Source: Vreelandella halophila | GTDB taxonomy: Bacteria; Pseudomonadota; Gammaproteobacteria; Pseudomonadales; Oleiphilaceae | Direction: 5' to 3' | NCBI RefSeq assembly: GCF_019903425.1 | Contig: NZ_JACHUZ010000013.1 | Location: forward strand, 1,148,285 to 1,212,284 | DNA: 64,000 nucleotides | Part shown: positions 8,052 to 61,149 of the stretch, in pieces | Numbering within the stretch: position 1 is the first letter of the stretch | How the letters are laid out: the number at the start of each line of letters is the position of its first letter | The notes under the pieces: generated by a model | Databases searched by the model: none | What the model was told of the DNA's origin: nothing | The model's input: the letters and a program-made list of their open reading frames with translations, nothing else | Program-made: the position numbers and the translations under genes

Positions 8052-8110
8052 GAGGCCTCGATCCGGTGGAGGTGTTGGTCTGTCCAGCGTAGCCTATTTC
8101 CCGGGCATAG

Positions 8111-8171
8111 CTGTAGGAGCCAGCTTGCTCGCGATCGTCTCCAGTATCGCCTGCACGGCAAGTTCCTACAG
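8111..8171. repeat. REP-type palindromic repeat, copy 4
   Basis: CTGTAGGAGCCAGCTTGCTCGCGAT, then GTATCGCCTGCACGGCAAGTTCCTACAG. The last six bases overlap the 3' end of jetD: the jetD TAG stop is read from the complement of the element's CCTACAG terminus. It bounds the Wadjet operon on its downstream side. Confidence 0.8.
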
Positions 8172-13365: not shown

Positions 13366-13367
13366 GG

Positions 13368-41913: not shown

Positions 41914-43473
<1,560 letters not shown>

Positions 43474-43497
43474 ATGCTCCTGCAATGACATGCGAAC

Positions 43498-43566
43498 AGG
43501 TATTTCATGGAGGTGCAGCGGTGAAAGGGTCTCCCTTTCACGATGAAATGCCCTCCTGAAATACCT
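43498..43566. promoter_or_regulatory. 69-bp nested palindrome
   Basis: The outer stem AGGTATTTCA-t-GGAGG (43498-43513) pairs with CCTCC-TGAAATACCT (43552-43566). Inside is a second hairpin GTGAAAGGG-tct-CCCTTTCAC (43521-43541). There is no T-run. It lies 25 bp after the lipoprotein stop and about 85-150 bp upstream of the sigma54 promoter, so it could be a terminator-like structure or an enhancer site for the activator. Confidence 0.6.
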
Positions 43567-43648
43567 CGGCTTCTACGTATTGCTTTCCTTTCATTAACAT
43601 CCTTACAGAACAACGCGTTAACAGCGTCTTGGTCGTTTCCGAACGCTC

Positions 43649-43664
43649 TGGCACAGCGCCTGCA
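43649..43664 (+). promoter_or_regulatory. Candidate sigma54 (-24/-12) promoter of the catabolic operon
   Basis: TGGCAC-A-GCGC-CTGC-A fits TGGCAC-R-N4-TTGC-W with one mismatch. GG (43650-43651) and GC (43662-43663) have the required 10-bp gap. Transcription would start near 43675. The operon's last gene encodes a sigma54 activator, which supports this. Confidence 0.68.
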
Positions 43665-43699
43665 ATAACTCAGGCAGAGCTGAACCAGAGATTGAACGT

Positions 43700-43720
43700 G
43701 CAGGAGGTGGAGCCTCCTGC
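43700..43720 (+). promoter_or_regulatory. Leader hairpin of the catabolic operon
   Basis: Perfect 8-bp stem GCAGGAGG/CCTCCTGC with loop TGGAG, within the predicted 5' leader and 32 nt before the first ATG. It has no T-run, so an mRNA-stability or translation element is more likely than a terminator. Confidence 0.45.
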
Positions 43721-43752
43721 GTTCCCGGACAACAACAAGGCGCTGACCAGCC

Positions 43753-44949
43753 ATGACCAAACCACTCGAAGATGTGCGGATCATTGATCTGACGCACATG
43801 CTCTCCGGACCCTACGCCGGCATGCTGCTGGCGGACCTCGGAGCGGAGTCGATCAAGGTTGAGCCGCTCAAGGGGGAGGGCACCCGCTCGCTGCTTGCCG
43901 GTAATCCCAAGTTCTCCCACGGCGGGCAGGGGGCGTACTTCATAACCCTCAACCGCAACAAGAAAAGCGTGTGCATCGACCTCAAGAGCGAGGATGGCCT
44001 GGCCATCTTCTATGACCTGGTGCGCGATGCGGACGTGGTGCTGGACAACTTCTCCGCCGGCGTCCCCACCAAGCTGAAGATCGACCACGAGCACCTGGCG
44101 GAGATCAACCCGCAGATCATCACCTGCTCGGTCACCGGCTTCGGCGAGGACGGGCCGAACTACCAGCGCCCGGCCTTCGACCAGGTGGTGCAGGGCATCG
44201 GCGGTGGCATGTCGATCACCGGCCATGACGCCGAGCATCCGGCGCGCGCGGGCATTCCCATCGGCGACCTGGGCGGTGGCATGTTCGCGGTCATGGGCAT
44301 CCTCTCGGCCCTGCACTCGCGCACTACCCATGGCTACGGCCAGCACGTGGACATCTCCATGCTCGACTGCCAGGTCAGCATGCTCAACTACATGGCCACC
44401 ATGTATTTCCTCTCCGGCGAGAACCCCTCGCCCATTGGCAACAGCCACTTCGTGCACGTGCCCTACGACGCCTTCCGCACCAGCGATGGCTTCGTGATCA
44501 TCGCGGTGATCTTCGACAGCTTCTGGGACAACCTGGTGGAGCTGCTCGACATCGATGAACTGCGCGACCCGGAATACCGCACCCAGCCCGGGCGTTTTGC
44601 GGACAAGCACCGCATCAACGGCATCCTCACCGAGCTGCTGCGCACCGAATCCACGGCGCACTGGGTGGAGCTGCTCTCCGGCGCCCGCATTCCCTGTGCC
44701 CCAGTGAACAGCCTTTCCGATGCCCTGAACGACCCGCAGGTGCTGTTCCGCAACATGGTGGTGGACATTCCCCAGCCGGATGGCGGCACCGTCCGCGCGC
44801 CGGGCAATCCCATCAAGCTCTCCATTGACGACCCCGATTCCTACACACCGCCGCCGCTGCTGGGCCAGCACACCAGTGAGGTGCTGGAGAAGCTGGGCTA
44901 CAGCGCGGACCGGATCCGCTCACTTCTGGATAAGGGGATCGTTGGATGA
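43753..44949 (+). CDS. Class III CoA-transferase (CaiB/BaiF family)
   Basis: A 398-residue protein with the family start PLEDVRIIDLTHMLSGPYAGMLLADLGAESIKVEP and the catalytic Asp in IPIGDLGGG (D172), which forms the acyl-anhydride intermediate. It transfers CoA between two carboxylic acids in the cytoplasm. Next to an HMG-CoA-lyase-type gene, a succinyl-CoA:(R)-citramalate CoA-transferase-like activity is attractive. First gene of the operon; its ribosome site is weak. It overlaps the lyase gene by 4 nt (ATGA). Confidence 0.88.
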   Translation: MTKPLEDVRIIDLTHMLSGPYAGMLLADLGAESIKVEPLKGEGTRSLLAGNPKFSHGGQGAYFITLNRNKKSVCIDLKSEDGLAIFYDLVRDADVVLDNFSAGVPTKLKIDHEHLAEINPQIITCSVTGFGEDGPNYQRPAFDQVVQGIGGGMSITGHDAEHPARAGIPIGDLGGGMFAVMGILSALHSRTTHGYGQHVDISMLDCQVSMLNYMATMYFLSGENPSPIGNSHFVHVPYDAFRTSDGFVIIAVIFDSFWDNLVELLDIDELRDPEYRTQPGRFADKHRINGILTELLRTESTAHWVELLSGARIPCAPVNSLSDALNDPQVLFRNMVVDIPQPDGGTVRAPGNPIKLSIDDPDSYTPPPLLGQHTSEVLEKLGYSADRIRSLLDKGIVG

Positions 44950-45890
44950 TGGTGCCGGCAGTAAGCGATTCAGTGACCATTAACGAGGTAGGCCCCCGCG
45001 ACGGGCTCCAGAGCCAGGGCAAGACCCTGTCGCCGGGGCAGCGCCTGGACCTGATCGAGCGCCTGGTTGGCGCCGGTCTGCGCCACGTGGAGGCGGGCAG
45101 TTTTGTCTCGCCCAAGGCCGTGCCGCAGATGGCCGGCACGGATGAGGTCTTCCACGGTCTGCCCGCAAAGGATCAGGTGCGCTACGCCGCCCTGGTGCCG
45201 AACATGAAGGGCTATGAACTGGCCGTGGCCGCCGGGGCGCGCGTGGTGAACGTGGTGCTCTCGGTCACCGAGACCATGAACTACGAGAACATCCGCCGCA
45301 CTGTGGATGAATCCGCCACCGACTTTGAGGGGATCCTCGAGCGCGCCAGTGCCGAGGGCGTTGCGGCCCAGGCCTATCTGGCCGTGGCCTTTGAATGCCC
45401 CTTCGAGGGGCCGGTCAACCCGGAGGTGGTCCGCCATTACGCCGATCGCATGACGGCGGCCGGCGCGCAAAAGATCATCATCGCCGACACCATCGGTGCT
45501 GCCAACCCGAAAGGGGTCCAGGCAGTGCTTGAGGCTGTTGGCGCTGTGGTGCCGGTCAGCCGGATCGCATGCCATTTCCACGACACCCGCGGCATGGCCC
45601 TGGCCAATGTGCTCGCCTCGCTCAACTACGGGGTCCGCGAGTTCGACGCCTCCATCGGTGGCCTCGGTGGCTGCCCGTTCTCACCGGGGGCCACCGGCAA
45701 TGTGGCCACCGAGGACGTGGCACTGATGCTCGATGCCATGGGCTACGACACCGGCATTGATCCGCTGGCGCTGGTGCCGGTGGTCCGCCACGCCCAGGCG
45801 CTGACTGGAACGGAGCTCGGAGGCAAGAGCTTCCAGTGGCTTGCCCGCCAGCACGATGGCCAGCAGGGAGGTGAACCCAATGGTTGCTAA
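44946..45890 (+). CDS. HMG-CoA-lyase-family (HMGL-like) lyase
   Basis: A 314-residue TIM-barrel protein. NEVGPRDGLQSQ near the N-terminus carries the metal and substrate residues, CHFHDTRGMALAN carries the metal His pair, and GGLGGCPFSPGATGN holds the signature Cys. The family cleaves 3-hydroxy-3-methylacyl-CoA esters to acetyl-CoA plus an oxo-acid: HMG-CoA, or (R)-citramalyl-CoA in some bacteria. Coupling to the CoA-transferase suggests that its substrate is that enzyme's product. Confidence 0.88.
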   Translation: MMVPAVSDSVTINEVGPRDGLQSQGKTLSPGQRLDLIERLVGAGLRHVEAGSFVSPKAVPQMAGTDEVFHGLPAKDQVRYAALVPNMKGYELAVAAGARVVNVVLSVTETMNYENIRRTVDESATDFEGILERASAEGVAAQAYLAVAFECPFEGPVNPEVVRHYADRMTAAGAQKIIIADTIGAANPKGVQAVLEAVGAVVPVSRIACHFHDTRGMALANVLASLNYGVREFDASIGGLGGCPFSPGATGNVATEDVALMLDAMGYDTGIDPLALVPVVRHAQALTGTELGGKSFQWLARQHDGQQGGEPNGC

Positions 45891-46866
45891 GGTCTTCGGA
45901 TTCGTCGCCCAGATCGCCCCCTGGGCCGTTGTCGCCAGCCTTGGCTACGCCGCGGCCTTCATCCACCCAACGGTGGAACCGCTGCCCCTGCCTCAGCCGC
46001 TGACCGAGCCACGGGATATCTTCTACGACGTGGCCAGTGCCAACGGCGAACGCTTCTGGTTCGTGGGCAACGCGGGCACCGTGCTGGAAGGCACCCGCGA
46101 GCCGGAGGGCTGGGAACGCCACGCCATGCCGGAGCCGATCAACCTCCAGGGTGTGGCCGTGACGCCCGAGAACACCGTGGTCGCCGTGGGTAACGAGGGG
46201 GCGGTCTTCATCCGGCGTGCCGGTGGGGAGGAATGGACCTCCCAGCGTCTGCCGGTCTCCGAGCGTGCCGGCAAGATGGTGGATGCGGCCTGGCTCAACG
46301 GCGCCCTCTGGGTGGTCGGTGAGATGGGCGCGATCTTCCGCAGCGACGATGGGGGCCGCAACTGGCAGTCCCTGGGCCTGGATAAGGACATCGGCCTGAA
46401 CGACATCGAGACCGATGCGGACGGCACCCTCTGGATCACCGCCGAGTTCGGGGACCTGATCCACTCGACGGACAACGGCGAGAGCTGGAAGACCCGCAAC
46501 TTCGGCTCCGAAAGCCTGCGCTCGGTGGCCTTCGCCGGCGACGGTACAGGCGTGGTGGTCGGCAACAACGGCGCCATGCTCCACCGCTCTGGCGCCGACA
46601 GTGGCTGGCAGTCCCTCGAGTCGGTCACCTCCGAGCACCTCTACGACGTGGGCTTTGACGGTGAGCGCTGGCTGGCCGTGGGCAACTCCGGTGCCGTGAT
46701 CGCCTCCGGCAACGGCGAGGACTGGGAGAAGCTGCGCCCCGAGGGCTTTGGCAGCGGCTACCACACCCGCCTGAACACCACTGAACGCGGCACCGTGATC
46801 GCCGGCCAGACCATTGGCCTTCTGCGTGCCTCCACCTGGAACACCTGGCCGGTAGAGGAGAACTGA
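45880..46866 (+). CDS. YCF48/BNR-repeat beta-propeller protein
   Basis: A 328-residue protein. An N-terminal hydrophobic anchor (FVAQIAPWAVVASLGYAAAF) comes before about seven beta-propeller blades with the Asp-box/YCF48 look (IFRSDDGGRNWQSLGL, IHSTDNGESWKTRNF). Probably periplasmic and membrane-tethered. GGGAGGTG precedes ATG 45880, which overlaps the lyase gene by 11 nt. Such proteins commonly sit beside RND, DUF1302 and DUF1329 genes in catabolic clusters and are thought to help assemble or dock the transporter; function unproven. Confidence 0.82.
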   Translation: MVAKVFGFVAQIAPWAVVASLGYAAAFIHPTVEPLPLPQPLTEPRDIFYDVASANGERFWFVGNAGTVLEGTREPEGWERHAMPEPINLQGVAVTPENTVVAVGNEGAVFIRRAGGEEWTSQRLPVSERAGKMVDAAWLNGALWVVGEMGAIFRSDDGGRNWQSLGLDKDIGLNDIETDADGTLWITAEFGDLIHSTDNGESWKTRNFGSESLRSVAFAGDGTGVVVGNNGAMLHRSGADSGWQSLESVTSEHLYDVGFDGERWLAVGNSGAVIASGNGEDWEKLRPEGFGSGYHTRLNTTERGTVIAGQTIGLLRASTWNTWPVEEN

Positions 46867-49223
46867 TGATGTCGCTCAGTCGTTTCGCCCAGGCTCTGTC
46901 CGAATTCTGTATCCGCCATCGCAAGCCGGTGACCGCCCTGATCGTGATCTCCACGATCGCCATGGCCGCGCTGCTCACCCGCCTGGAGGTCTACACCGAG
47001 TTCAGTGACATGGTGCCCCAGGGCCACCCCTACGTGGACGTGCACGAGGAGTACAAGGAGACCTTCGGGGGCTCGAACAAGGTCTCGATCATGGTAGCCG
47101 CCGAGGAGGGCAGCATCTTCCGCCGTTCCATCCTCAAGGAGGTCCAGCGCATCACCCAGGAGCTGGCCAAGGTCAGCGGCGTGAACCCCTTCCAGATCAC
47201 CTCCCTGGCCTCGCGCAAGCTCAAGTCGGTCAACGCCTCCTCCCGGGGCATCGAGAGTGTGCCGCTGATGTGGCCGGATGTGCCGGAGACCCGCGAGGGC
47301 GTTGAGACACTGCGCGAGGCGGTGCTCAACAACCCCATGGTCTACGGCATCTACGTCTCCAATAGCCAGGACTCGACCCTGATCCAGGTGGACTTCTACG
47401 ACAACCTGGTCGATTACAGCAAGATCTTCCCCCAGATCCAGTCGATCCTGGACGAGTCGCCGGTGAAGAACCAGGTGAACCATCACCTTGTGGGTCAGCC
47501 GGTGCTCTACGGCTGGGTGAACCATTACCTGGGCGAGACCGTGAACATCGCGCTGGCCTCGCTCGGGGCCATGCTGCTGGCGCTGTTCCTGCTCAACCGC
47601 ACCTGGCGCGGAACCCTGCTGCCGCTGGTCAGTGGCGTGGTCTCCACCATCTGGGCGCTGGGCATCGGGGTGTTGCTGGGCTTCAACTTCGATCCGCTGG
47701 TGATCGTGGTGGCGTTCATCATCACCGCGCGCTGTTTCAGTCACGCGGTGCAGCTGATCACCCGTTTTGACGACCTGTGCGACGGCGAGGGCATCCAGCC
47801 GAAAAAGGCGGCGGAGATGACCATGAAGGAGCTGTTCCGGCCCGGGCTGCTGGGGCTGGTCTCGGACGCCGGCGCCATCCTCTGTGTGGTGCTCACGCCC
47901 ATCCCGCTGCTGCAGAAGGTCTCCATCATCGGCGCCATCTGGGTGCTGACCATTGGCTTCTCCGCCGTGATCCTGACCCCGGTGCTGCTGAGCTGGGTGA
48001 AGGCGCCGCTGCGCAACGCCCACCCGCTGAACCTGCGCTTTCTGCTGACAGCGGTGCTGACCCTGGCCGTGAAAGTGGTGGAAGGCCGCGGGCGTTACGT
48101 GGTGCTGCCGGTGACCGCCATCGCCGTGGGCCTGCTGGTGTTCAAGGCCACGGACCTGACCATCGGCGATGCCACCCCGGGCTCCCCGATCCTCTGGGAG
48201 GATTCGTCCTTCAACCGGGACAGTGCCCTGATCAATGAGAACTACCCGGGCACCGAGCAGATGTTCATCGTGCTCTCCGGGGACGAGAACGACGTGCTCA
48301 AGCGCCCGGACGTGCTCGACTGGATGCAGCGGTTCCAGCGCCGGATGGAGCGCATGCCGCAGGTCGGCGGCAGCCTGTCGCTGGCGGACATCGTGGTGGA
48401 TGTGCGGCGCAACCTCTACGAGGGCAACCCGCGCTACCGAGAGCTGGGCAACGCCCAGATCGAGAACGGTGAGCTGATCAGCTTCTACATGCAGGGCGCG
48501 GCGCCGGATGACCTGGCCCAGTACGCCGACCCCATGTTCCGCAACGGCTCGGTGATCATGTTCCTGCAGGACCGCCAGGGCGAGACCCTGCGCCAGGCCA
48601 CGCATCAGATCAACCGCTTCATCAACGAGAACCCGCTGGACGGCGTGGATGTGCGCATGGCCGGCGGATCGCTGGGGATCATCGCGGCGGTCAACGAGGT
48701 GTTGCTGCGCGACCAGGTCGAGGCCATCGCCCTGGCCCTGCTGGTGGTGATCATTTCCTGCCTGGTGGTCTATCGCTCCTCGGCCAGCGGCATCTTCTTC
48801 ATGGTGCCGGTGCTGATCTCCAACGTGGTGACCTTCGCCTTCATGGCCTGGCAGGGCATCGGCATGAGCATCAGCACCCTGCCGGTGGTCGCGCTGGGCA
48901 TCGGTCTCGGGGTGGATTACGCCTTCTACATCGTGGACTCCGTGAAGGAGTACCTCGAGAAGGAACCCGACGGTGATGCCGTCGAGGCCATCCGCCAGTC
49001 CCTCTATTCCGCCGGACGCGGGGTGCTGCTGACGTCAGTCACCCTCGCCGCCGGTGTGCTTCTGTGGTCCTTCTCCTCTCTGCGTTTCCAGGCGGAGATG
49101 GGGCTGCTGATCGGGTTGTGGCTGCTCGTTTCAGCGTTCACGTCGCTGTTCGTCATGCCCTCCCTGGTAAGGGTGCTGCGCCCGAGGTTCATCTTCGGCC
49201 AGCCCGCTCCTTCCTCAAACTGA
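46866..49223 (+). CDS. RND/MMPL-family transporter
   Basis: A 785-residue protein with one N-terminal helix, a large periplasmic loop (TRLEVYTEFSDMVPQGHPYVDVHEEYKETFGG...), five or six helices, then the same plan repeated (second loop from about 430; last helix group from about 620). This is the HAE-3/MMPL architecture, as for hopanoid or lipid carriers. It likely moves a hydrophobic or amphiphilic compound between membranes. It overlaps the YCF48 gene at TGATG and sits directly before the DUF1302/1329 genes. Confidence 0.9.
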   Translation: MMSLSRFAQALSEFCIRHRKPVTALIVISTIAMAALLTRLEVYTEFSDMVPQGHPYVDVHEEYKETFGGSNKVSIMVAAEEGSIFRRSILKEVQRITQELAKVSGVNPFQITSLASRKLKSVNASSRGIESVPLMWPDVPETREGVETLREAVLNNPMVYGIYVSNSQDSTLIQVDFYDNLVDYSKIFPQIQSILDESPVKNQVNHHLVGQPVLYGWVNHYLGETVNIALASLGAMLLALFLLNRTWRGTLLPLVSGVVSTIWALGIGVLLGFNFDPLVIVVAFIITARCFSHAVQLITRFDDLCDGEGIQPKKAAEMTMKELFRPGLLGLVSDAGAILCVVLTPIPLLQKVSIIGAIWVLTIGFSAVILTPVLLSWVKAPLRNAHPLNLRFLLTAVLTLAVKVVEGRGRYVVLPVTAIAVGLLVFKATDLTIGDATPGSPILWEDSSFNRDSALINENYPGTEQMFIVLSGDENDVLKRPDVLDWMQRFQRRMERMPQVGGSLSLADIVVDVRRNLYEGNPRYRELGNAQIENGELISFYMQGAAPDDLAQYADPMFRNGSVIMFLQDRQGETLRQATHQINRFINENPLDGVDVRMAGGSLGIIAAVNEVLLRDQVEAIALALLVVIISCLVVYRSSASGIFFMVPVLISNVVTFAFMAWQGIGMSISTLPVVALGIGLGVDYAFYIVDSVKEYLEKEPDGDAVEAIRQSLYSAGRGVLLTSVTLAAGVLLWSFSSLRFQAEMGLLIGLWLLVSAFTSLFVMPSLVRVLRPRFIFGQPAPSSN

Positions 49224-49238
49224 CAACGGGTAAACAAG

Positions 49239-50918
49239 ATGACTACACACAATAAAGACGGCTTTGTCCGGAACGGTGTCCCGGGGCGTCTGCTGCTGGC
49301 GGGAGCGGTCATGGCAGCCTCGGCCGGGGCCACCACTACCGTCCACGCCCAGGAACAGAACTGGCTGCTCAAGGACTGGGAAATCAACGGCTACCTGCGC
49401 CAGTACGTGGGCATGAACCTGGAGAACCCGACGCTGATCGGCCCCGGCCCCAATACCTTTGATGGGCAGCAGGAGGATGACTACAAGTACGACCTCTCCA
49501 TGCTGCGCACCGTGGGCAAGCTGAACCTGTTCCGAGAGTTCGACGACGGCACCCGGGTCAAGCTCTCCGGCCGAATGTCGCGCGAGGTGAACACCGAGTA
49601 CATGCGCGACATGCAGCGGGTGGCGGATGAATGGGCACGCACGGGCCCGGAGAGCGAGGCGTACCGGGATCTCAGGCGCGACGTCTATGACGATGAACAG
49701 ATCCGCGAGGCCTGGGTCCAGACGGAGCTGACCGACAGCACGGAGCTCAAGCTTGGCCGCCAGCAGGTGGTCTGGGGCGAGACGGACTTCTTTCAGCTGA
49801 TGGACGTGATCCACGGTTACGACTTCCGTTGGCGGTCCTTCCTCGAGCCTGAGAATGAGGAACTGCGCAAGCCACTGAACATGGTGAATATCCGCCAGCG
49901 CATCGGCGATGGCGGCCTGCAGGCGATCTACATTCCCGGCAAGCTCAATGATAAGGATGATTTCGGCAACAGTTATGACGTTGAGGGCGGACGCTGGGCG
50001 AACCAGCCCAATCGGGGTGTCCAGTTCCAGTCCGCGCCTTTCGGGGCCGGTGTGCGCTACAACTACGAGCACCCCGAGGCGGATGTGGAAGACGGCGCCT
50101 ACGGCCTGCGCTGGAGCAGTACCCTGGGTGACTGGGGCTACTCGCTGGCCTGGTTCCATGGGCCCAACCCGAATCCGGTGGCCAACCCGAACCCGGCCCT
50201 GAACAACACCGCGCCCCAGCTCAGCACTGGACCGTACGAGGGCGTCTATCAGGGAGACCCCGGCTGGGCTGGTGAGTTCATCTTCCCGACCATCGATGTG
50301 TTCGGCGTAACGGCGAACAATTATTTCCCGGCACTGGATGTGGTGTTCAGCACGGAGCTGGCCTACATCCCGGACGCGCCGTACAACTTCGGTGTGGAAA
50401 GCAACGGTGCTGCCCCGACCGGCGAGGCGTGCGGGTTTTTCCCCGGGTTCTGTGGTATTAAGGAGAAGAACCTCTTCCGATCGATGTTCCGCATCGACAA
50501 GCAGCTGGACCTCACCGACCTGATCGGCACCAGCCGCCCGTCGTTCGCCAGTATCCAGATCTTCAACAACTGGATCACGGATTACGAAGGCAGCGACCAG
50601 CTGATCAACACCGCTGGTTTCGGCGGCAAGACCGAAGAGTTCAGTTCCATCCTGACCGCCGTGCTTTCGGCGAACTACGCCAACGACACGGTGAATCCGT
50701 CACTGGCCGCGGTCTCCGACCTGACCTATGGCGGTGGCGTGATCATACCGGCTGTTGAACTGGTACAGGGGGACCACATCCGTATTCGTCTCGAGGGGAA
50801 CTTCTTCTTCCACGAGACCGACCAGGACCGCCCACTGCAGGGTTTCAACGACACCAACCTGTTCGGGTACTTCTCAGGCAATGACCAGCTCATGGCCCGC
50901 CTGACCTACCAATTCTGA
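49239..50918 (+). CDS. DUF1302 family outer-membrane-type protein
   Basis: A 559-residue protein with a signal peptide (LLLAGAVMAASAGATTTVHAQ), alternating beta strands throughout and a C-terminal aromatic end (LMARLTYQF), as in outer-membrane barrels. It matches DUF1302 by pattern (LKLGRQQVVWGETDFFQLMDVIHGYDFRWRS). These proteins occur with DUF1329 in clusters for hydrophobic substrates and are believed to form an uptake channel. It lies 15 nt after the RND gene. Confidence 0.85.
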   Translation: MTTHNKDGFVRNGVPGRLLLAGAVMAASAGATTTVHAQEQNWLLKDWEINGYLRQYVGMNLENPTLIGPGPNTFDGQQEDDYKYDLSMLRTVGKLNLFREFDDGTRVKLSGRMSREVNTEYMRDMQRVADEWARTGPESEAYRDLRRDVYDDEQIREAWVQTELTDSTELKLGRQQVVWGETDFFQLMDVIHGYDFRWRSFLEPENEELRKPLNMVNIRQRIGDGGLQAIYIPGKLNDKDDFGNSYDVEGGRWANQPNRGVQFQSAPFGAGVRYNYEHPEADVEDGAYGLRWSSTLGDWGYSLAWFHGPNPNPVANPNPALNNTAPQLSTGPYEGVYQGDPGWAGEFIFPTIDVFGVTANNYFPALDVVFSTELAYIPDAPYNFGVESNGAAPTGEACGFFPGFCGIKEKNLFRSMFRIDKQLDLTDLIGTSRPSFASIQIFNNWITDYEGSDQLINTAGFGGKTEEFSSILTAVLSANYANDTVNPSLAAVSDLTYGGGVIIPAVELVQGDHIRIRLEGNFFFHETDQDRPLQGFNDTNLFGYFSGNDQLMARLTYQF

Positions 50919-50929
50919 GGAGAACAACA

Positions 50930-52195
50930 ATGACCATCCAACCCACAATCCGAAAGATGACTCTGGCGCTGGCCATGGCGGCCGGTTCCAGCGGGGCCCT
51001 GGCGGCGGCGCTTTCCCCGGGGGACAAACTCAGCGCGGACAACCTGGAGCAGCGCCTCCAGGATACCTTCGAGGGCAACACCATTGAGTCGCTGCTGACC
51101 GATGTACAGCAGCGCCTGATCCAGGAGGAGGGGCTGGTGATCACCCTCAAGGAATCCGAGCCCGTCAAACTGGGCGAGGATTACATGGCGGCCACCGAGA
51201 AGTATTCGGACCAGGCCACCTTCGACCCCGAGACCCGGCTGATGGAAGGCTGGGTGGCGGGCATGCCGTTCCCGGATGTGACCGAGGACACGCCGCACGC
51301 GGCGGAGAAACTGGTGTGGAACCACCACGTGGCCCAGCCCACCAAGAACTTCCAGGACTACCCGAAGTTCGCCTACCTGTTCGTGGATGACGAGGATGGG
51401 CTGGAACGCCGCCAGGAATGGGTGTTCAAGCGCTTCTACACCAAGGGGCGCCTGGGCGAGGAAGAGACCGAGGTGGGCGATGAGGATGTGCTGTTCAAGC
51501 AGCTGCTCTACGCCACCTACCCGAACGACATCCGCGGCCTGGGCCTGTTCACCATCCGCTACGACGGCCCGCAGCTGGATGACAGCTGGGCTTACCTGAA
51601 AACCGTGCGCCGGACCCGGCGGCTGTCCGGCGGGACCTGGATGGACCCGATCGGCGGTACCGACCAGCTCAACGACGACATCGAGATCTTCAACGCCCAC
51701 CCGACCTGGTACCCGGAGTACAAGCTGCTGGGCAAGCGCACCATCCTGGCCGTCGCCCACAGCCAGAACCGTTCCTGGAACCTGGACGCCAGCGGCCCGG
51801 AGGAGTTCCCGATCATCGACCTGGACGACGCCCCGCACTGGAACCCCCAGGACGAGTGGGAGCCGCGTGACGTCTGGGTGATCGAGGCCACCGCGCCGCC
51901 GGAGCACCCCTACAGCAAGAAGGTCATGTACATGGACACCGAGTTCCCCCGCTTCTACATGGCGGACGTCTATGACCGCAAGGGCGAGTTCTGGAAGTGG
52001 ATGAACTACAACCTCAAGACCGTGCCCACCGAGGACGGGGATCGCGGGATTGTCTCGGCCGCCGGCTTCACCATCGACTACCAGCGTCGCCACGCGACCA
52101 TCTTCATCCTGCACCCGGATGTGCGCCTGAACACGCCCGGAACCGGTCCTGAAGACATCAGTCTGCGTGAGCTCGAACGGGCGGCGGAACGCTGA
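50930..52195 (+). CDS. DUF1329 family exported protein
   Basis: A 421-residue protein with a signal peptide (MTLALAMAAGSSGALAAA). It has the DUF1329 pattern: NDIRGLGLFTIRYD, RRLSGGTWMDPIGGTDQLNDDIEIFNAHPTWYPEY, and WVIEAT-PPEHPYSKK. The fold resembles LolB/LppX-like lipid carriers, so a periplasmic hydrophobic-ligand carrier acting with the RND pump and DUF1302 barrel is plausible. GAGGAG precedes ATG. Confidence 0.85.
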   Translation: MTIQPTIRKMTLALAMAAGSSGALAAALSPGDKLSADNLEQRLQDTFEGNTIESLLTDVQQRLIQEEGLVITLKESEPVKLGEDYMAATEKYSDQATFDPETRLMEGWVAGMPFPDVTEDTPHAAEKLVWNHHVAQPTKNFQDYPKFAYLFVDDEDGLERRQEWVFKRFYTKGRLGEEETEVGDEDVLFKQLLYATYPNDIRGLGLFTIRYDGPQLDDSWAYLKTVRRTRRLSGGTWMDPIGGTDQLNDDIEIFNAHPTWYPEYKLLGKRTILAVAHSQNRSWNLDASGPEEFPIIDLDDAPHWNPQDEWEPRDVWVIEATAPPEHPYSKKVMYMDTEFPRFYMADVYDRKGEFWKWMNYNLKTVPTEDGDRGIVSAAGFTIDYQRRHATIFILHPDVRLNTPGTGPEDISLRELERAAER

Positions 52196-52218
52196 TGCCT
52201 CGCCTTTCAACAACAGAG

Positions 52219-52241
52219 CAACGGGCGGGCGCCGCCCGTTG
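52219..52241 (+). promoter_or_regulatory. Intra-operon hairpin
   Basis: A perfect 9-bp GC-rich stem CAACGGGCG/CGCCCGTTG with a 5-nt loop between the DUF1329 gene and hyuA. No T-run follows. Such a hairpin can protect upstream mRNA from 3' decay and set different levels for the transport and enzyme halves of the operon. Confidence 0.5.
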
Positions 52242-52268
52242 CCACCAATCGTCTGTAGGAGAGCATCT

Positions 52269-54338
52269 ATGAGCTTCAGATTGGGTGTGGATGTCGGGGG
52301 TACGTTCACGGACCTGCTCCTGATCAACGATGCCACCGGCGAGGCGTTCACCTGCAAGGTGCCCTCAACGCCGAGTGACTCCTCCCAGGGGGTGCTCAAC
52401 GGCATTGAGCAGATCTGCCGCACGTCCGGGGTCAAGCCACAGGACATCACCTCGGTGATGCACGGCACGACCGTGGCCACCAACGCCATCCTGACGCAGA
52501 AGGGCGCGCGGGTGGGGTTGGTGACGACCCGGGGCTACCGCCAGGTCCTGCACATCGCGCGTTCCTACGTGCCGGGCGGCATCGGCGGCTGGGTGATCTT
52601 CAATAAGCAGCCCCTGCTGGCCTCGCTGGAGGACACGGTGGAGGCCCATGAGCGCATCGGCGCCAAAGGGGATGTGGTCACGCCGCTGGATGACAACGAC
52701 ATCCGTGGCAAGCTCCAGGCGCTGAAGGAAGCCGGGGTTGAGGCGGTCACCGTCTGCCTCATCAACGCCTACGCCAATGGCGAGCACGAGCGCCGCATCG
52801 GCGAGATCGCGGCGGAAGTGATGCCGGACATTCCGGTGTCGCTTTCCTCGCGGGTGGTGCCCGAGATGCAGGAGTACGAGCGCACCGAGACCACGGTGGT
52901 GAATAGCTTTGTGCACCCGGAAGTCTCGAGCTACCTCTCTCACCTGGAAAAGGAAATCGCCCACCGGCTGGCCGATGACGTGCACCTGTCGATCCTGCGC
53001 TCGGACGGCGGTCTGGCGGCGAGTGAAGCGGCGGCGGCAACGCCGGTCAACCTGCTTCTGTCCGGGCCTGCCGGGGGCGTGGCCGGGGCCATCTGGTTTT
53101 GTTCGCGCGGCGGTTTCGACCGGGTTCTGACCTTTGATGTGGGGGGAACGTCCACAGACGTGGCCCTGATTGAGAACAGCAGCGCCCGCCTGCGTCGCGA
53201 GACCCAGGTGGGGGATGTGGCGGTGCGCGCACCCTCGGTGGACGTGCGCACGGTTGGTGCTGGTGGCGGTTCCATTGCCTTTGTGCCGGAGCTGACCAAG
53301 GCCCTGCGCGTGGGCCCGGACAGCGCCGGCGCCACGCCGGGCCCGGCGGCCTACGGCCAGGGCGGTGAGGCCCCGACGGTGACCGACGCGGACGTGGTGC
53401 TGGGCTACCTGCCCGCCGACCAGAAGCTGGGCGGCAACATGGCCCTGCGCAAGGATCTGGCGGAGAAGGCCGTCCAGAAAGTGGCGGATGCCATGGACCT
53501 GTCGATCAAGGATGCCGCCGAGGGCATCGTGCGCATTGCCAACGAGCACATGTTCGGCGCGCTGCGCCTGATCTCCGTGGAGCAGGGCTATGACCCCCGG
53601 GACTTCGCCCTCTGCGGCTTCGGTGGTGCCGGCCCGCTGCACGCCAACGCCCTGGGCATCCTCATGGACGCCTGGCCGGTGATCATCCCGCCCTCGCCGG
53701 GGGTGCTCTGTGCCTACGGCGATGCCACCACCCGGGTCAAGGACGAAGCCTCGCGCTCACTGGTCAGGGGCTTCTCAGGCCTGACGAAAGACGACGTGGT
53801 CGCGACCCTGGACCAGCTGACCCAGCAGGTGAACGACTCCCTTGCCGACCAGGACATTCCACGGGACCAGCAGGTGGTGACCTGGGAGGCGGATGTGCGC
53901 TACCAGGGCCAGGCGCTGCTGCTGACCCAGGTGGTGGAGCCGGAGACCCTGCGTGGCGAGGGCCTGGACGTGCTCCGCCGCGCCTTCGATGCCGAGCACC
54001 TGCAGCTGTTCAGCTTCTCGCTGGATGAGGAGCACGAGCTTGTGAACCTGCGCGCCACCGCCAGGGCACCGCGCCCGAACATCCGCGAGCGCCAGTGGGC
54101 GGTCAGCGAGACCAGCTCGGAGGTCGCCATCGTCGGTGAGAGCCCGATCTACTACGAGGGCCGGGACTACAACGCCACGCTGTACAACCGCGACCAACTG
54201 AGTCCGGGCCATGTGGTGGCGGGGCCAGCCATTGTCATGGAGATGGACTCCACCACCGTCATCCTGCCCGGTTACCACGCCACCGTGGACAGGGTCGGGA
54301 ACCTTCTGATCGAGCCTGCCAGTCCGGGTAAGGAGTAA
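52269..54338 (+). CDS. hyuA: ATP-dependent hydantoinase/oxoprolinase subunit A
   Basis: A 689-residue protein with an ASKHA-type phosphate loop at the N-terminus (LGVDVGGTFTDLLLI), HGTTVATNAIL, a second phosphate site TFDVGGTSTDVALI (about 290), and SIAFVP followed by DSAGATPGPAAYGQGG. HyuA/OplA-type subunits phosphorylate a cyclic amide to drive ring opening; carboxylases of ketones use the same fold. AGGAGA precedes ATG 52269. Forms a complex with the next gene, 5 nt downstream. Substrate not readable. Confidence 0.88.
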   Translation: MSFRLGVDVGGTFTDLLLINDATGEAFTCKVPSTPSDSSQGVLNGIEQICRTSGVKPQDITSVMHGTTVATNAILTQKGARVGLVTTRGYRQVLHIARSYVPGGIGGWVIFNKQPLLASLEDTVEAHERIGAKGDVVTPLDDNDIRGKLQALKEAGVEAVTVCLINAYANGEHERRIGEIAAEVMPDIPVSLSSRVVPEMQEYERTETTVVNSFVHPEVSSYLSHLEKEIAHRLADDVHLSILRSDGGLAASEAAAATPVNLLLSGPAGGVAGAIWFCSRGGFDRVLTFDVGGTSTDVALIENSSARLRRETQVGDVAVRAPSVDVRTVGAGGGSIAFVPELTKALRVGPDSAGATPGPAAYGQGGEAPTVTDADVVLGYLPADQKLGGNMALRKDLAEKAVQKVADAMDLSIKDAAEGIVRIANEHMFGALRLISVEQGYDPRDFALCGFGGAGPLHANALGILMDAWPVIIPPSPGVLCAYGDATTRVKDEASRSLVRGFSGLTKDDVVATLDQLTQQVNDSLADQDIPRDQQVVTWEADVRYQGQALLLTQVVEPETLRGEGLDVLRRAFDAEHLQLFSFSLDEEHELVNLRATARAPRPNIRERQWAVSETSSEVAIVGESPIYYEGRDYNATLYNRDQLSPGHVVAGPAIVMEMDSTTVILPGYHATVDRVGNLLIEPASPGKE

Positions 54339-54343
54339 CTGCG

Positions 54344-56212
54344 ATGCCAGCCACACTGATTGAAACCAATGAGACGCCGCTGAAGCGGGTCGATGTGGAC
54401 CTGGTCACCCTCGATATCATCGAGAACGCCATGTCCAACGCCCGCAAGGAGATGGACGCGGTGCTGATGCGCACGGCCATGTCCCCGGGCATCCGGGAGC
54501 AGGGCGACGCCTTCCCGATGATCGCCAACCACGAGGGCAAGATGGTGGTGGGCCAGTTCGGCTCCTTCATCTCCGGCTTCGTCAATTCCTATAACGGCGA
54601 CATCAACGAAGGCGACGTCTTCCTCACCAACGACCCCTACGCCTGCGACGGCGCGGTCAGCCACCTGCCGGACTGGCTGATCCTGGTGCCGGTGTTCAAG
54701 GACGGGCGGCTGATCAACTGGGCGGCCATGTTCGGGCACATGTCGGATGTTGGCGGCAAGGTGCCGGGCAGCCTGCCCACCGATGCCACCAGCATTTTCG
54801 AGGAAGGCATCCGGATCCCGCCGATGAAGATCTACCGCGGTGGCGTGCTTAACGAGGACGCGCTGGACATCATCCTGCACAACGTGCGCGTACCCAGCTG
54901 GGACCAGTCCGACTTCAACGCCATTGTGGCCGCCTGCCGCACGGCGGCACGGCGCTGCATCGAGCTGGCGGAGCGCTTCGGTGACGACATCTTCACCAGC
55001 GCGCTGGGCGAGATGCTGGAGCGCAACTACGTGGCCATGCGCGAGATCATCCGCAACGTGGTACCCGAGAGCAAGCGCTCGTTCGAGGACTACATCTGTG
55101 ATGACGGCGCCGGACTGGGGCCCTACACCATGCGCTGCACCCTGTGGCGCGAGGGCGACAAGGCCATCTTCGACTTCGAGGGGACCGACCCGCAGGCGCC
55201 GTCGTCCGTGAACTTCTACCTCAACGAGGAGATGTTCAAGATGTTCTTCGGGGCCTTCACCATCAACCTGTTCGATCCGTCGATCCTGTTCAACGACGGC
55301 TTCTACGACCTGGTGGAGGTGCGCATTCCTCAGGGCTCGATCCTCAAGCCCAACTTCCCTGCGGCGCTGTCGTGCCGGACCCACCTGCTGGGGCGGCTGT
55401 TCGATGTGATGAGCGGCCTGCTGGGCCAGGGTTCGCCGGATGCCATGAACGCGGCCGGCTTCTCGGACTCACCGCACTTCATGTACTCGGGCTACGACGA
55501 CAACGAGGAATGGTTCCAGCTGTTCCAGATCGGCTTCGGGGGCATTCCCGGGCGCCCGCTCGGTGACGGCCCGGATGGCCACTCGCTGTGGCCGGGCTTC
55601 ACCAACGTGCCCAACGAGTTCGTGGAGGCGTATTTCCCGATCCGGATCGAGACCTACGAGACCATCACCGATTCCGGCGGTGCGGGTATACATCGCGGCG
55701 GCAACGGCATCCGCGTGGGTTACCGCCTGCTGGCCAACGGCGAGGTCTCCATCCACGACGACCGTTGGCTCACCTACCCATGGGGCGTCAACGGCGGTGA
55801 TCCGGGCATGCGCAGCCGCAAGACGCTGCTGCGGGCGGACGGTTCCGAGCAGATCCTGCCCTCCAAGTGCGACCACGTGAAGGTCCGCAAGGACGATCTG
55901 CTGCTGTTCGACACCTGGGGCGGCGGTGGCTGGGGCAACCCGCTGGAGCGTGATCCCGAGGCCGTTGCCACCGACGTCAAGCGTGGGCTGGTGAGCGTGG
56001 ACGGCGCCGGCCGTTACGGGGTGGTGCTTGATGGGAAGGGCGTGATCGATGCCGCCGCCACCGAAAGCCTCCGGGCCGAGATGGCGCCGGGCCGGGATAC
56101 CACCGAGCTGTTCAACCGGGGCGGCACCATCGCCGAGATCAAGGCGCGCTGCCTTGATGAGACGGGCCTGCCGGCACCGGACACTCCGACCTGGGACAAG
56201 CAGGGAGCCTGA
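54344..56212 (+). CDS. hyuB: ATP-dependent hydantoinase/oxoprolinase subunit B
   Basis: A 622-residue partner of HyuA. It has EGDVFLTNDPYACDGAVSHLPDW, GHMSDVGGKVPGSLPTDATSIFEEGIRIPP (metal-site His/Asp) and SGGAGIHRGGNGIRVGYR-like stretches, then the Gly-rich GGGGWGNPLERDPE end. In oxoprolinase/hydantoinase the B subunit hydrolyses the phosphorylated ring. The length is a little above the family norm. Followed after 2 nt by an amidase gene, which fits a ring-opening then de-amidation sequence. Confidence 0.88.
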   Translation: MPATLIETNETPLKRVDVDLVTLDIIENAMSNARKEMDAVLMRTAMSPGIREQGDAFPMIANHEGKMVVGQFGSFISGFVNSYNGDINEGDVFLTNDPYACDGAVSHLPDWLILVPVFKDGRLINWAAMFGHMSDVGGKVPGSLPTDATSIFEEGIRIPPMKIYRGGVLNEDALDIILHNVRVPSWDQSDFNAIVAACRTAARRCIELAERFGDDIFTSALGEMLERNYVAMREIIRNVVPESKRSFEDYICDDGAGLGPYTMRCTLWREGDKAIFDFEGTDPQAPSSVNFYLNEEMFKMFFGAFTINLFDPSILFNDGFYDLVEVRIPQGSILKPNFPAALSCRTHLLGRLFDVMSGLLGQGSPDAMNAAGFSDSPHFMYSGYDDNEEWFQLFQIGFGGIPGRPLGDGPDGHSLWPGFTNVPNEFVEAYFPIRIETYETITDSGGAGIHRGGNGIRVGYRLLANGEVSIHDDRWLTYPWGVNGGDPGMRSRKTLLRADGSEQILPSKCDHVKVRKDDLLLFDTWGGGGWGNPLERDPEAVATDVKRGLVSVDGAGRYGVVLDGKGVIDAAATESLRAEMAPGRDTTELFNRGGTIAEIKARCLDETGLPAPDTPTWDKQGA

Positions 56213-56214
56213 TC

Positions 56215-56814
56215 ATGAGTCTGACATCCCGAACACTGTCCCGGGCCGGGCGCTACGCGCTGGTGCTGGTGGACATGAGCGTGGGGTTCACCGACCCCGT
56301 GAACAGCCCCCTGGGCACCGAATCGGCCGCCGTGGTGGCGGCCAACCAGCGGCTGCTGGCGTACTTCCGGGAACAGGGCCTGCCGGTGTTCTACACCACC
56401 GTGGCCTACAGCGAGCCCGACCAGGCCCGGGTCTTCCGGGAGAAACTGCCGTCGCTGGAGGTCCTGGCGCTGGGCTCGGGCATGGAGGCGATTGACCCCC
56501 GGGTGGCGCCCCGTGACAACGAGCCGGTGATCATCAAGCACTGGCCCAGTGGCTTCTTCGGCACCGACCTGAACGAGTTCCTGAAACAGGCGGACGTGGA
56601 TGGCGTGGTGGTTACGGGCATGACCACCAGCGGCTGTGTGCGCGCCACGGCCCTGGACAGCCTGCAGAACGAGTACCGCACGATTGTTGTGCTCGATGCC
56701 GTGGGGGATCGCGACAGCGAGGCCCATGACGCCAACCTCAAGGACCTGGGGATCAAGTATGTGGACGTGCTTTCAGTGGAACAGACACTGGCGCTGCTGG
56801 CCGGTGATGATTAG
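56215..56814 (+). CDS. Isochorismatase-fold cysteine hydrolase (amidase)
   Basis: A 199-residue protein with the Asp-Lys-Cys triad: D20 (LVLVDMSVGF), K108 (IIKHWPSGFFGTDL) and C141 (MTTSGCVRATALDS). The family includes N-carbamoylsarcosine amidase and the maleamate amidohydrolase NicF. Placed 2 nt after HyuB, it is the likely next step: releasing ammonia (or carbamate) from the ring-opened acid amide. Cytoplasmic, no signal. Confidence 0.87.
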   Translation: MSLTSRTLSRAGRYALVLVDMSVGFTDPVNSPLGTESAAVVAANQRLLAYFREQGLPVFYTTVAYSEPDQARVFREKLPSLEVLALGSGMEAIDPRVAPRDNEPVIIKHWPSGFFGTDLNEFLKQADVDGVVVTGMTTSGCVRATALDSLQNEYRTIVVLDAVGDRDSEAHDANLKDLGIKYVDVLSVEQTLALLAGDD

Positions 56815-57217
56815 CCGGGCGGCGTTGCCCGTGGCGGTACTGGCGCTGGCCGGCTGTGGTGCGCTTCCGGGCATCGGTGAGGATCCGCTGAAGGCGGAGC
56901 TGGAGGACTCGCTGGCGCGTGAGCCGGCGGCCTGTGCCGACTATCGCGCGGCCTATGTGGCGGGGTTCGAGACCCACGTCCAGGGGCTCAGTGACGATGA
57001 ACAGGCGCTGACGCAGCAGGGCCTGGAGCGGCTGGAGAGCAGCCGTTCCATTCTCGCGGCCAATGGCCTGGAGCGCGCTGACTGCACCCGACCCCACTGC
57101 ATCATCGAACCCCTGGATGCGGGGAAGCTGGACAGCTGGTGTGGCTACCGGCTCGACCGCAGTGACGGGCCCGAGGTGTTCCAGTGGTTCGAGTGGTCGA
57201 AGGTGGAGGATGAGTGA
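56807..57217 (+). CDS. Small lipoprotein of unknown function
   Basis: A 136-residue protein. [17 protein letters not shown] is a short lipoprotein signal (lipobox LAGC); the mature part has four further cysteines (C44-type ACADYR, and C-x4-C-x15-C near the end), suggesting disulfides in the periplasm. It overlaps the amidase gene by 8 nt and leuC by 4 nt. No family recognised. It is odd to find one surface lipoprotein between two cytoplasmic enzymes. Confidence 0.65.
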
Positions 57218-58629
57218 TGATGGCAAGAACCCTTTACGACAAGCTCTGGGAGAATCACCAAGTCGATGATCTGCCGGACGGCAGCTCGCTGATCTACATC
57301 GACCGCCAGCTTCTGCACGAAGTCACCTCGCCCCAGGCCTTCTCGGGGCTGCGCATGCAGCACCGGCCGGTCTGGCGCACCGGTGCCAGCATTGCCGTGC
57401 CCGACCATGCGGTGCCCACCCGCGGCCGCGAGGCCGGGGTGGCGGGCATCGCGGACCTGGTGGCGCGCCGCCAGGTCCAGCGGCTGACGGACAACTGCGA
57501 GGAATTCAGTATCCCGCTGTTTGCGCTGGACGATGCCCGCCAGGGGATCGTGCACGTGATCGGCCCGGAGCAGGGGCTGACCCTGCCGGGCATGACCATT
57601 GTCTGCGGCGACTCGCACACCGCCACCCACGGGGCCTTTGCGACGCTGGCCATGGGCATCGGCACCAGCGACGTGGAGCATGTGCTGGCCACCCAGACCC
57701 TGAAAATGCGCCGCCAGAAGAACATGCGCGTGATCTTCGACGGGCAGCTTTCCCCCTGGGTGACGCCCAAGGACCTGGTCATGGCCATGATCGGGCGCAT
57801 CGGTACCGCCGGGGGCACCGGCTACGCCATTGAATACGCCGGTTCGGCCATCCGCGCGCTGAGCATGGAAGGGCGCATGACCATCTGCAACATGAGCATC
57901 GAGGCCGGAGCTCGCGCGGGCATGGTGGCCTACGACCGGGTCACCGAGGATTACGTGCGCGGCCGCCATTACGCCCCGAAAGGCGACATGTTCCAGCGCG
58001 CCACCGGCGTCTGGCGGGACCTGGTCTCCGATGAGGGCGCCCGTTTCGACCGCGAGGAACACTTCGATGCCGGGGCGCTTTCACCCCAGGTGTCATGGGG
58101 CACCTCCCCGGAGATGGTTTGTGGTATAAGTGAATCAATACCCCGCCTGGAGGCGATCGATGACCCCGGGCTGCGTGAGGGCTACCGGCGGGCACTGGAT
58201 TACATGGCGCTGGAGCCGGGGCAGCCGCTTGAGGGCATAGAACTGGATAAGGTGTTCATCGGCTCCTGCACCAATGCCCGCATCGAGGACCTGAGGGCAG
58301 TGGCCGCCGTGGTGGAGGGCCGGAAAGTGCACGATCAGATCCATCAGGCCCTGATCGTGCCCGGCTCCGGCCAGGTGCGCGAGCAGGCGGAGCGCGAGGG
58401 CCTGGACCGGATCTTCCTGGACGCGGGCTTTGAGTGGCGGGCCGCCGGGTGCTCCATGTGCCTGGGCATGAACGATGACCGACTTTCCGAGGGGGAGCGC
58501 TGTGCCTCCACCTCTAACCGCAACTTCGAGGGGCGCCAGGGCAAGGGCGGGCGTACCCACCTGATGAGCCCGGTGATGGCGGCCGCCGCTGCGGTAACAG
58601 GCGCCATCACTGATGTGAGGGAGTTGTGA
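57214..58629 (+). CDS. leuC: 3-Isopropylmalate-dehydratase-type large subunit (LeuC-like)
   Basis: A 471-residue aconitase-family protein. The N-terminus [58 protein letters not shown] (first cluster Cys) and [12 protein letters not shown] (two more) give a complete [4Fe-4S] site. Length equals normal LeuC. LeuCD enzymes interconvert 2- and 3-hydroxy diacids through an unsaturated diacid and also accept citraconate/citramalate. In this operon a catabolic hydratase role is more likely than leucine synthesis; a second leuCD elsewhere would support that. Confidence 0.88.
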
Positions 58630-58631
58630 CC

Positions 58632-59273
58632 ATGCAGCCTTTCAGCACCCATACCGGGGTCGTGATCCCGTTCGACCGGCGCAACGTGGACACGGACGCG
58701 ATCCTGCCCAAGCAGTACCTGAAAATGCTGGAAAAAACCGGCTTCGGGGACTTCCTGTTCGATGACGAACGCTACCTGGATCCCGGCGATGTGGAGACCC
58801 CGATTTCCGGGCGCCGTCCGAACCCGGCGTTCATCCTCAACCAGCCGCCCTATGACAAAGGCAGCATTCTGCTGGCCCGGGACAACTTCGGCTGTGGCTC
58901 CAGCCGTGAGCACGCGGTCTGGGGTCTGGTGGGGTTCGGCATCCGGGTGGTGATCGCACCGAGTTTTGGCGAGATCTTCTATAACAACTGCATCAACAAC
59001 GGGCTGTTGCCGGTCATCCTCAAGCTGGCGGCGGTCGAGGAACTGTTCCAGTGCTGTCGCGAACACCCCGGCTTTGAGCTGACGGTGGATCTGGAAAACC
59101 AGACGCTGAGCCATCCGGCGCGGGGGGAGTGGCCCTTCCACATGGAGGACGGCCACCGCAAGGCGCTGCTTGAGGGGCTGGATGAGATTGGGCTGACGCT
59201 GGAGCGGGCGGAAGCGATACGAGCCTTTGAGGCCAGCCGCAGGGAGCGCGAGCCCTGGCTGTTCACTGAGTGA
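58632..59273 (+). CDS. leuD: 3-Isopropylmalate-dehydratase-type small subunit (LeuD-like)
   Basis: A 213-residue swivelling domain. PFDRRNVDTDAILPKQYLK, LARDNFGCGSSREHAVW and FGEIFYNNCINNGLLPV are all LeuD hallmarks. Pairs with the LeuC-like subunit to close the active site. ATG 58632 has GGGAG 8 nt upstream; GTG 58626, which overlaps the leuC stop, is the alternative. The C-terminal tail (RREREPWLFTE) is as in LeuD. Confidence 0.88.
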   Translation: MQPFSTHTGVVIPFDRRNVDTDAILPKQYLKMLEKTGFGDFLFDDERYLDPGDVETPISGRRPNPAFILNQPPYDKGSILLARDNFGCGSSREHAVWGLVGFGIRVVIAPSFGEIFYNNCINNGLLPVILKLAAVEELFQCCREHPGFELTVDLENQTLSHPARGEWPFHMEDGHRKALLEGLDEIGLTLERAEAIRAFEASRREREPWLFTE

Positions 59274-59283
59274 GGAGCGGGCC

Positions 59284-61146: not shown

Positions 61147-61149
61147 GCG

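Follow-up and report, generated by a model that had tools for sequence, protein, structure and literature searches.

The DNA analysed here (the window) is a stretch of 64,000 nt, positions 1148285-1212284 of contig 13, from the 3.5-Mb genome of Vreelandella halophila, for which the nearest relative bearing a species name, among the matches obtained, is Vreelandella utahensis (activator 94% identical). Thirteen genes on the plus strand occupy 43753-61146. With the starts used, they are joined by overlaps or by gaps of at most 15 nt, the junction before hyuA measuring 73 nt if its ATG is the one at 52269. The run begins with the genes for a class III CoA-transferase (43753-44949; PF02515) and an HMG-CoA-lyase-like lyase (44946-45890; PRK05692, 341 bits over a cut-off of 246; PDB 2ftp), followed by those for a YCF48/BNR-repeat protein (45880-46866; PF14870; start proposed), an MMPL/RND transporter (46866-49223; PF03176), a DUF1302 protein that is probably located in the outer membrane (49239-50918; PF06980) and a DUF1329 LolA-like protein (50930-52195; PF07044). 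Next come the genes for HyuA, similar to hydantoinase/oxoprolinase/caprolactamase alpha subunits (52269-54338; PF01968; PDB 7hk5), HyuB, similar to hydantoinase B and caprolactamase beta (54344-56212; PF02538), an isochorismatase-fold amidohydrolase nearest to N-carbamoylsarcosine amidohydrolase (56215-56814; PF00857; PDB 26st), a small putative lipoprotein (56807-57217; an open reading frame kept in position, with no Pfam match), and LeuC-like and LeuD-like dehydratase large and small subunits (57214-58629 and 58626-59273). A further LeuC-like copy, 65% identical to the product of 57214-58629, is present in the genome. Just 5' of the run, an open frame (41914-43473) starts like a lipoprotein and contains a long Pro-Glu repeat; no NCBIfam match was obtained for it at 1e-10.

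The last gene of the run (59284-61146, plus strand; GTG start proposed from ortholog matches) follows leuD after 10 nt and encodes a protein made up of PrpR_N (PF06506, 106.8 bits against a cut-off of 29.1), an AAA+ sigma54 interaction domain (PF00158) and a Fis-type HTH_8 domain (PF02954). An earlier inspection of the letters, hereafter the sequence-only reading, had placed a sigma54 activator at the end of the run starting at 43753 and had called it the sole one in the window. Both points were borne out: the matches to the activator listed for this genome number 12, and a single one of them falls within the window. In the other eleven the match is confined to the AAA+ and C-terminal part, so that among the 12 the PrpR_N region is matched in the window protein alone. 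The designation of the activator as PrpR-type proved apt for the domain architecture, which is the same as that encoded in the E. coli/Salmonella prpBCDE-PrpR system, but did not extend to the PrpR equivalog (TIGR02329), for which the score was 445 bits versus a cut-off of 499.2. Two further traits set the locus apart from prp: none of the 13 genes of the run is a prp gene (prpBCDE), and the activator gene lies inside the operon, whereas prpR and prpB have divergent orientations. A gene for RpoN is present in another part of the genome.

The loop of the activator reads GAFTHA rather than GAFTGA, a point against its acting as proposed below. A survey covering the window activator, L010-L027, L074 and L115 (the search pattern missed L013) revealed GAFTHA, GAFTSA, GAFTNS and GAFTSS among orthologs, and GAYTGS in L115. 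Since GAFT is kept and the later residues vary across relatives, the departure looks like a trait of the subfamily rather than damage.

Promoter element and upstream boxes across orthologs

A candidate sigma54 -24/-12 element, TGGCACAGCGCCTGCA, is found at 43649-43664 on the plus strand and agrees with 10 of 12 consensus positions. Its GG (43650-43651) and GC (43662-43663) are 10 bases apart, in a TGGCACG-N4-TTGCW context, which is the exact gap that the sequence-only reading had described; the close placement ahead of the first gene was also right, although 88 nt, and not the 89 claimed, separate the element from the ATG at 43753. Within the window such matches are as common as in shuffled DNA: at a score of at least 10/12, the plus strand has five sites, versus a mean of 4.75 for that strand in 20 dinucleotide shuffles, and the minus strand has two, and a looser scan gave 22 matches where 42.9 were expected, i.e. 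fewer than the shuffles. These figures would suit an explanation in which the match is fortuitous and a sigma70 promoter drives the operon. Comparison of orthologous upstream regions argues against it. Searches for the first gene covered 21 genome entries, two duplicate pairs among them, and 19 non-redundant upstream regions were scored, consisting of the window and 18 first-gene orthologs (66-99% identical) from Vreelandella, Marinobacter, Alloalcanivorax, Pseudomonas, Halopseudomonas and one further genome; L032 duplicates L033 (same contig) and was omitted, L028 duplicates L029 (same coordinates) and was left unscored, and the CoA-transferase match of PS662 (37%) was excluded as a paralog. 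A site of at least 10/12 within 150 nt of the start was present in all 19 regions, which include close relatives and do not represent 19 independent events; in 200 shuffle rounds, 0.11 regions on average and 2 at most had such a site. The sites begin 54-104 nt 5' of the ATG, and the element is kept while most of the DNA around it diverges. It is this conservation across orthologs, and nothing else, that lifts the motif above chance, so that the sigma54 promoter claimed earlier stands by comparison and not by the motif in the window alone. The comparison supports 43649-43664 as a real sigma54 promoter, and a chance match combined with a sigma70 promoter is strongly disfavoured, being the least probable of the explanations considered. 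A competing sigma54-like site (43463-43478; 9/12) was dropped, because the corresponding V. utahensis DNA does not have it among its three best sites.

Ortholog alignment revealed two tandem palindromes of the form TTTCA-N3-TGAAA upstream of the promoter. The sequence-only reading, correct about the element, had been incomplete for this region, leaving the paired boxes at 43514-43548 unmentioned. The proximal candidate activator box, TTTCACGATGAAA (43536-43548, plus strand), is a perfect palindrome (10/10) whose position is conserved. Paired with it at 22 bp is the distal candidate box, TGCAGCGGTGAAA (43514-43526, plus strand), a weak one (6/10) of which the right half alone fits. Pairs were scored out of 20 as two boxes 18-23 bp apart, with a threshold of 16, and by this measure comparison shows a box pair in 19/19 first-gene promoters (shuffle mean 0.06, maximum 1; 100 rounds). 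The exact palindrome has a single copy in the window (43536-43548) and four in the whole genome. The other three copies were rejected as further targets, having no convincing sigma54 element at the right distance; two of them fall within open frames in the DNA read, the third in a short intergenic stretch.

An IHF-like site, GAACAACGCGTTA, was tentatively assigned at 43608-43620 (plus strand; 7/9, in an AT-rich region), and many orthologs contain such sites between the boxes and the -24 element, with best scores of 6-9 of 9. Eleven loci, the window among them, have the start of the upstream box 133-135 nt ahead of the -24 element; the distance is 119 nt for the seven Pseudomonas/Halopseudomonas loci and 160 nt for L047. 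Because boxes and IHF-like site are both ca. 11-15 bp closer to the -24 element in Pseudomonas/Halopseudomonas than in most other loci, they have moved together.

This promoter grammar is like that of prp. TTTCA/TGAAA half-sites are found upstream of E. coli prpB, together with the -24/-12 element TGGCACACCCCTTGCT, and IHF function is reportedly needed in Salmonella. The boxes described here differ from those of prp in being tandem palindromes with a 3-base spacer. The Salmonella PrpR enhancer is given as CGTTTCATGAAACG in Table 1 of PMC4987338, and its half-sites match the present boxes; the signal for Salmonella PrpR is named in the same article as 2-methylcitrate.

The second, convergent operon

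At 61146/61150 two operons meet tail to tail, with 3 bases between the ends of the activator gene and of oyeB. The latter (61150-63222, minus strand) encodes an OYE-family flavoenzyme and is the last gene of the second operon. It is preceded by the gene for an EamA-type transporter (63219-64000, minus strand), which runs beyond the window edge; the stretch beyond holds eamA, a second OYE gene (oyeA) and a gene for an Asp/Glu/hydantoin racemase, all on the minus strand (L095, 3400-6933), the racemase family having been assigned by Pfam on the PS662 protein. The sequence-only reading left unmentioned that the genes at 61150-64000 appear to belong to a second operon with a like promoter layout.

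The box motif had been read off first-gene promoters, and an independent set was therefore needed, for which the racemase promoters were used. The racemase gene is present in 14 of the 20 genomes searched, and the six without a match are the six Marinobacter genomes of that search. A sigma54-like site of at least 9/12 is found 45-85 nt upstream of 13 of the 14 racemase genes, with 11 of the sites reaching at least 10/12, counts that carry no shuffle baseline; the one miss is G068, where the gene is on another contig. Nine of these 13 promoters contain a box pair of at least 16/20, against a shuffle mean of 0.05, and the remaining four score 14 or 15, below the pair threshold. L109, which has no sigma54-like site of at least 9, is counted among the 14 and is outside the 13-promoter box test. 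Comparison thus shows, at the level of motifs, a second predicted promoter with boxes.

The OYE genes vary in position among relatives. An oyeB ortholog (71-75% identical) is located on the same strand just 5' of the CoA-transferase gene in five of seven Pseudomonas/Halopseudomonas clusters; in MRCP1333 an OYE ortholog is about 5 kb upstream of the CoA-transferase gene, and in the stretch read for P. violetae none was found. OYE genes of Alloalcanivorax (two stretches) are divergent from the CoA-transferase gene and have a 10/12 sigma54-like site, with a box pair ca. 170-200 nt before it. In Halopseudomonas xiamenensis (L023) and Pseudomonas MYb185 (L024), the eamA gene located downstream of the activator gene is preceded, at about 220 nt, by strong sigma54-like sites (11 and 10 of 12, respectively).

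Position of the activator gene and the feedback layout

A search of genome contigs with the activator yielded 18 loci, 16 of which have the whole 13-gene order with the activator gene last, making 17 intact orders with the window; L012 is cut by a contig end, and L019 (PS662) has lost most of the cluster. Judged by position only, the activator gene is inside the run with the first gene in 18 of 18 loci having both on one stretch, and also in L115. In PS662, an in-frame OYE/LeuD chimera (L019, 8806-10044; one assembly) precedes the activator gene. Apparently about 14 kb were deleted, leaving the activator gene at the end of the racemase run, which carries its own sigma54-like site. A same-strand, dehydrogenase-like open frame follows the activator gene in at least three loci (L021, L022 and L027, all Pseudomonas), and the run may therefore be longer there.

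Other clusters differ further. L074 is a reduced cluster of CoA-transferase, lyase, HyuAB, amidohydrolase and activator genes, followed by a gene for a TonB-dependent receptor (11641-14202). When 369 genomes of the class were sampled, HyuB was matched at E 1e-250 or better in six, the window's own included, and the clusters of the remaining five (L115-L119) were read. The order in the distant cluster L115 is activator, TonB-dependent receptor (6372-8963), CoA-transferase, lyase, HyuAB, amidohydrolase and LeuCD, and here a sigma54-like site (10/12) and a 20/20 box pair are found directly 5' of the activator gene, with no site of at least 9 within 400 nt upstream of the CoA-transferase gene. In the stretches read for L116-L119, the activator gene and a box pair of at least 17/20 were both absent (the pair threshold was 17/20 in reading L115-L119 and 16/20 in the promoter sets). 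L117-L119 have sigma54-like sites of at least 10, but none just before the first gene of the cluster; the L119 stretch starts near a contig end, with its upstream part outside view. Comparison thus shows co-occurrence of boxes and activator gene. It also indicates that the feedback layout, as predicted from gene order and motifs, is retained in three gene orders, once with the activator gene first, and since all three keep that gene in a sigma54 run the layout is called conserved.

These observations bear on which protein acts at 43649-43664. As the activator has 12 listed matches in this genome, all but one confined to the AAA+ and C-terminal part, a different sigma54 activator of the genome might drive this promoter while the PrpR-type protein acts elsewhere. 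However, the match spans PrpR_N for the window protein only, the boxes bear PrpR-like half-sites, and boxes and activator gene occur together and are both unseen in L116-L119, so this possibility is given very little credence. We consider it likely that a working sigma54 promoter at 43649-43664 reads a 13-gene operon ending in the gene for its own activator, and that the same protein also drives the convergent operon. The PrpR_N domain would bind a ligand that is probably one of the pathway's organic acids, and the activator would assemble on the two TTTCA-N3-TGAAA boxes at 43514-43548. IHF would probably bend the DNA between boxes and promoter, helping looping, and the AAA+ domain would then open the RNA polymerase-sigma54 complex. 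The message from 43649-43664 would carry the activator gene at its end, and activation would therefore raise the level of activator, a positive feedback. Such feedback through a 17-kb message, with a sensor for a pathway acid, had been proposed in the sequence-only reading; comparison supports that proposal in part, as regards the promoter and the encoding of the activator in the run that it would control. The second sigma54 operon, comprising the racemase gene, oyeA, eamA and oyeB and ending at 61150, would respond to the same activator. Such a switch could strengthen itself once a food compound, probably oily and nitrogen-containing, appears. A motif at chance level in the window is in this way turned into a predicted regulon with specified candidate binding sites in five genera, and a sigma54 activator gene held in its own sigma54 run across gene orders makes the role of feedback in sigma54 switches amenable to testing.

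Signals within the run that might affect the message were also analyzed. A 12-bp GC-rich hairpin, devoid of a T run on the plus strand, is located at 52217-52243, between the transport and the enzyme genes. Besides the window, V. utahensis and all seven Pseudomonas/Halopseudomonas loci have this DUF1329-hyuA hairpin (L058 and L067-L073 together), its position being kept while its letters differ between the Vreelandella and the Pseudomonas/Halopseudomonas groups. For the remaining 8 of the 17 loci, those of Marinobacter and Alloalcanivorax, no such hairpin was evident; in this comparison the stretch for L059-L061 ran beyond the true start. The hairpin could split the message; alternatively, it may be a sign of RNA processing or of transport and enzyme halves that are expressed unequally. 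Terminator-like patterns were more numerous than in shuffles (15 versus 8.1, s.d. 2.9), with five of the 15 on the plus strand and no convincing T run among them. A scan of 43300-61400 for sigma70-like sites gave only two, both on the minus strand, compared with 2.2 in shuffles, and internal sigma70 promoters were rejected, their number being as in shuffles.

A sigma54 promoter is nearly silent without its activator, and a basal source of activator must therefore exist; the sigma70-like scan of 43300-61400 did not find one. This need gives substance to an alternative in which the sigma54 promoter and its boxes are genuine, yet most of the activator comes from a constitutive or internal promoter of its own, the genes being clustered with little feedback. 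The intercistronic hairpin could lower distal expression, and 39-177 nt precede the activator gene in five Pseudomonas/Halopseudomonas loci, both in keeping with this alternative (plausible junction gaps were used, setting aside as artefacts -591 at the isochorismatase gene of L064/L065 and 939 before the activator gene of L066). A precedent is EtpR of Aromatoleum aromaticum, a sigma54 catabolic activator that is apparently constitutive according to PMC4630880. Against this alternative, the leuD-activator gap in the window is just 10 nt, plus-strand sigma70-like sites are absent from 43300-61400, and the activator gene stays in a sigma54 run in three gene orders, once as the first gene. We regard separate expression of the activator as unlikely, although it is the rival to be taken most seriously, and favour expression from 43649-43664. 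EtpR is also the nearest catabolic-plus-efflux analogue found: as described in PMC4630880, one sigma54 activator likewise governs neighbouring catabolic and efflux clusters with sigma54 motifs. EtpR is, however, encoded between the clusters, with no -24/-12 element before its gene in that account, whereas the present activator gene is within the sigma54 run.

Candidate pathway and substrate

HyuAB is nearest to caprolactamase and N-methylhydantoinase. It matches the CapAB/N-methylhydantoinase family over nearly the full length, but its scores of 506 bits (HyuA against CapA) and 216 bits are below the CapAB equivalog cut-offs of 1000 bits each, and the companion genes of CapAB differ from those found here. 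The amidohydrolase is also near PDB 3ot4/3uao, which we take to be maleamate amidohydrolase. The set of enzymes suggests catabolism of a cyclic imide or an alkylmaleate. The substrate is perhaps a hydrophobic cyclic imide that HyuAB would open, with de-amidation, hydration by LeuCD, activation by the CoA-transferase and cleavage by the lyase to follow. An order of imide, half-amide, diacid, hydroxydiacid, CoA ester and cleavage would employ every enzyme; the L074 cluster, which is devoid of LeuCD, does not fit it unless the other copy of that genome serves. The literature searches made found no match for the pathway, which is no proof of absence.

Taken as a whole, the two convergent operons might constitute a self-amplifying sigma54 regulon for an undescribed route, in which a hydrophobic cyclic imide, such as an alkylated maleimide remaining after tetrapyrrole breakdown, would be taken up, reduced by the two OYE enzymes, opened by HyuAB in an ATP-driven reaction, de-amidated, hydrated by LeuCD, converted by CoA transfer and cleaved in a retro-Claisen reaction to a 2-oxoacid and an acyl-CoA, with a diacid of the pathway as inducer. 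So detailed a scheme, including its example substrate, is offered as a speculative proposal that is doubtful in its entirety. Maleimides appear in PMC8669743 as products of tetrapyrrole breakdown, and not as substrates of gene clusters. The regulon groups transporters, OYE enzymes and the HyuAB-LeuCD-lyase set, and inducer screening could thus identify the pathway.

DUF1302, DUF1329 and RND proteins are linked to monoterpene use in PMC6394551 and to Tween 20 use in PMC10866462. The Ame system of Castellaniella defragrans, the subject of the former article, shares with the present locus the DUF1302 outer-membrane and DUF1329 LolA-like proteins and the RND transporter, linked there to the metabolism of hydrophobic compounds; it handles monoterpenes, however, and the account of Ame in that article makes no mention of a HyuAB/LeuCD pathway. 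The L074 and L115 clusters are devoid of the RND/DUF1302/DUF1329/YCF48 set and have the gene for a TonB-dependent receptor in its place.
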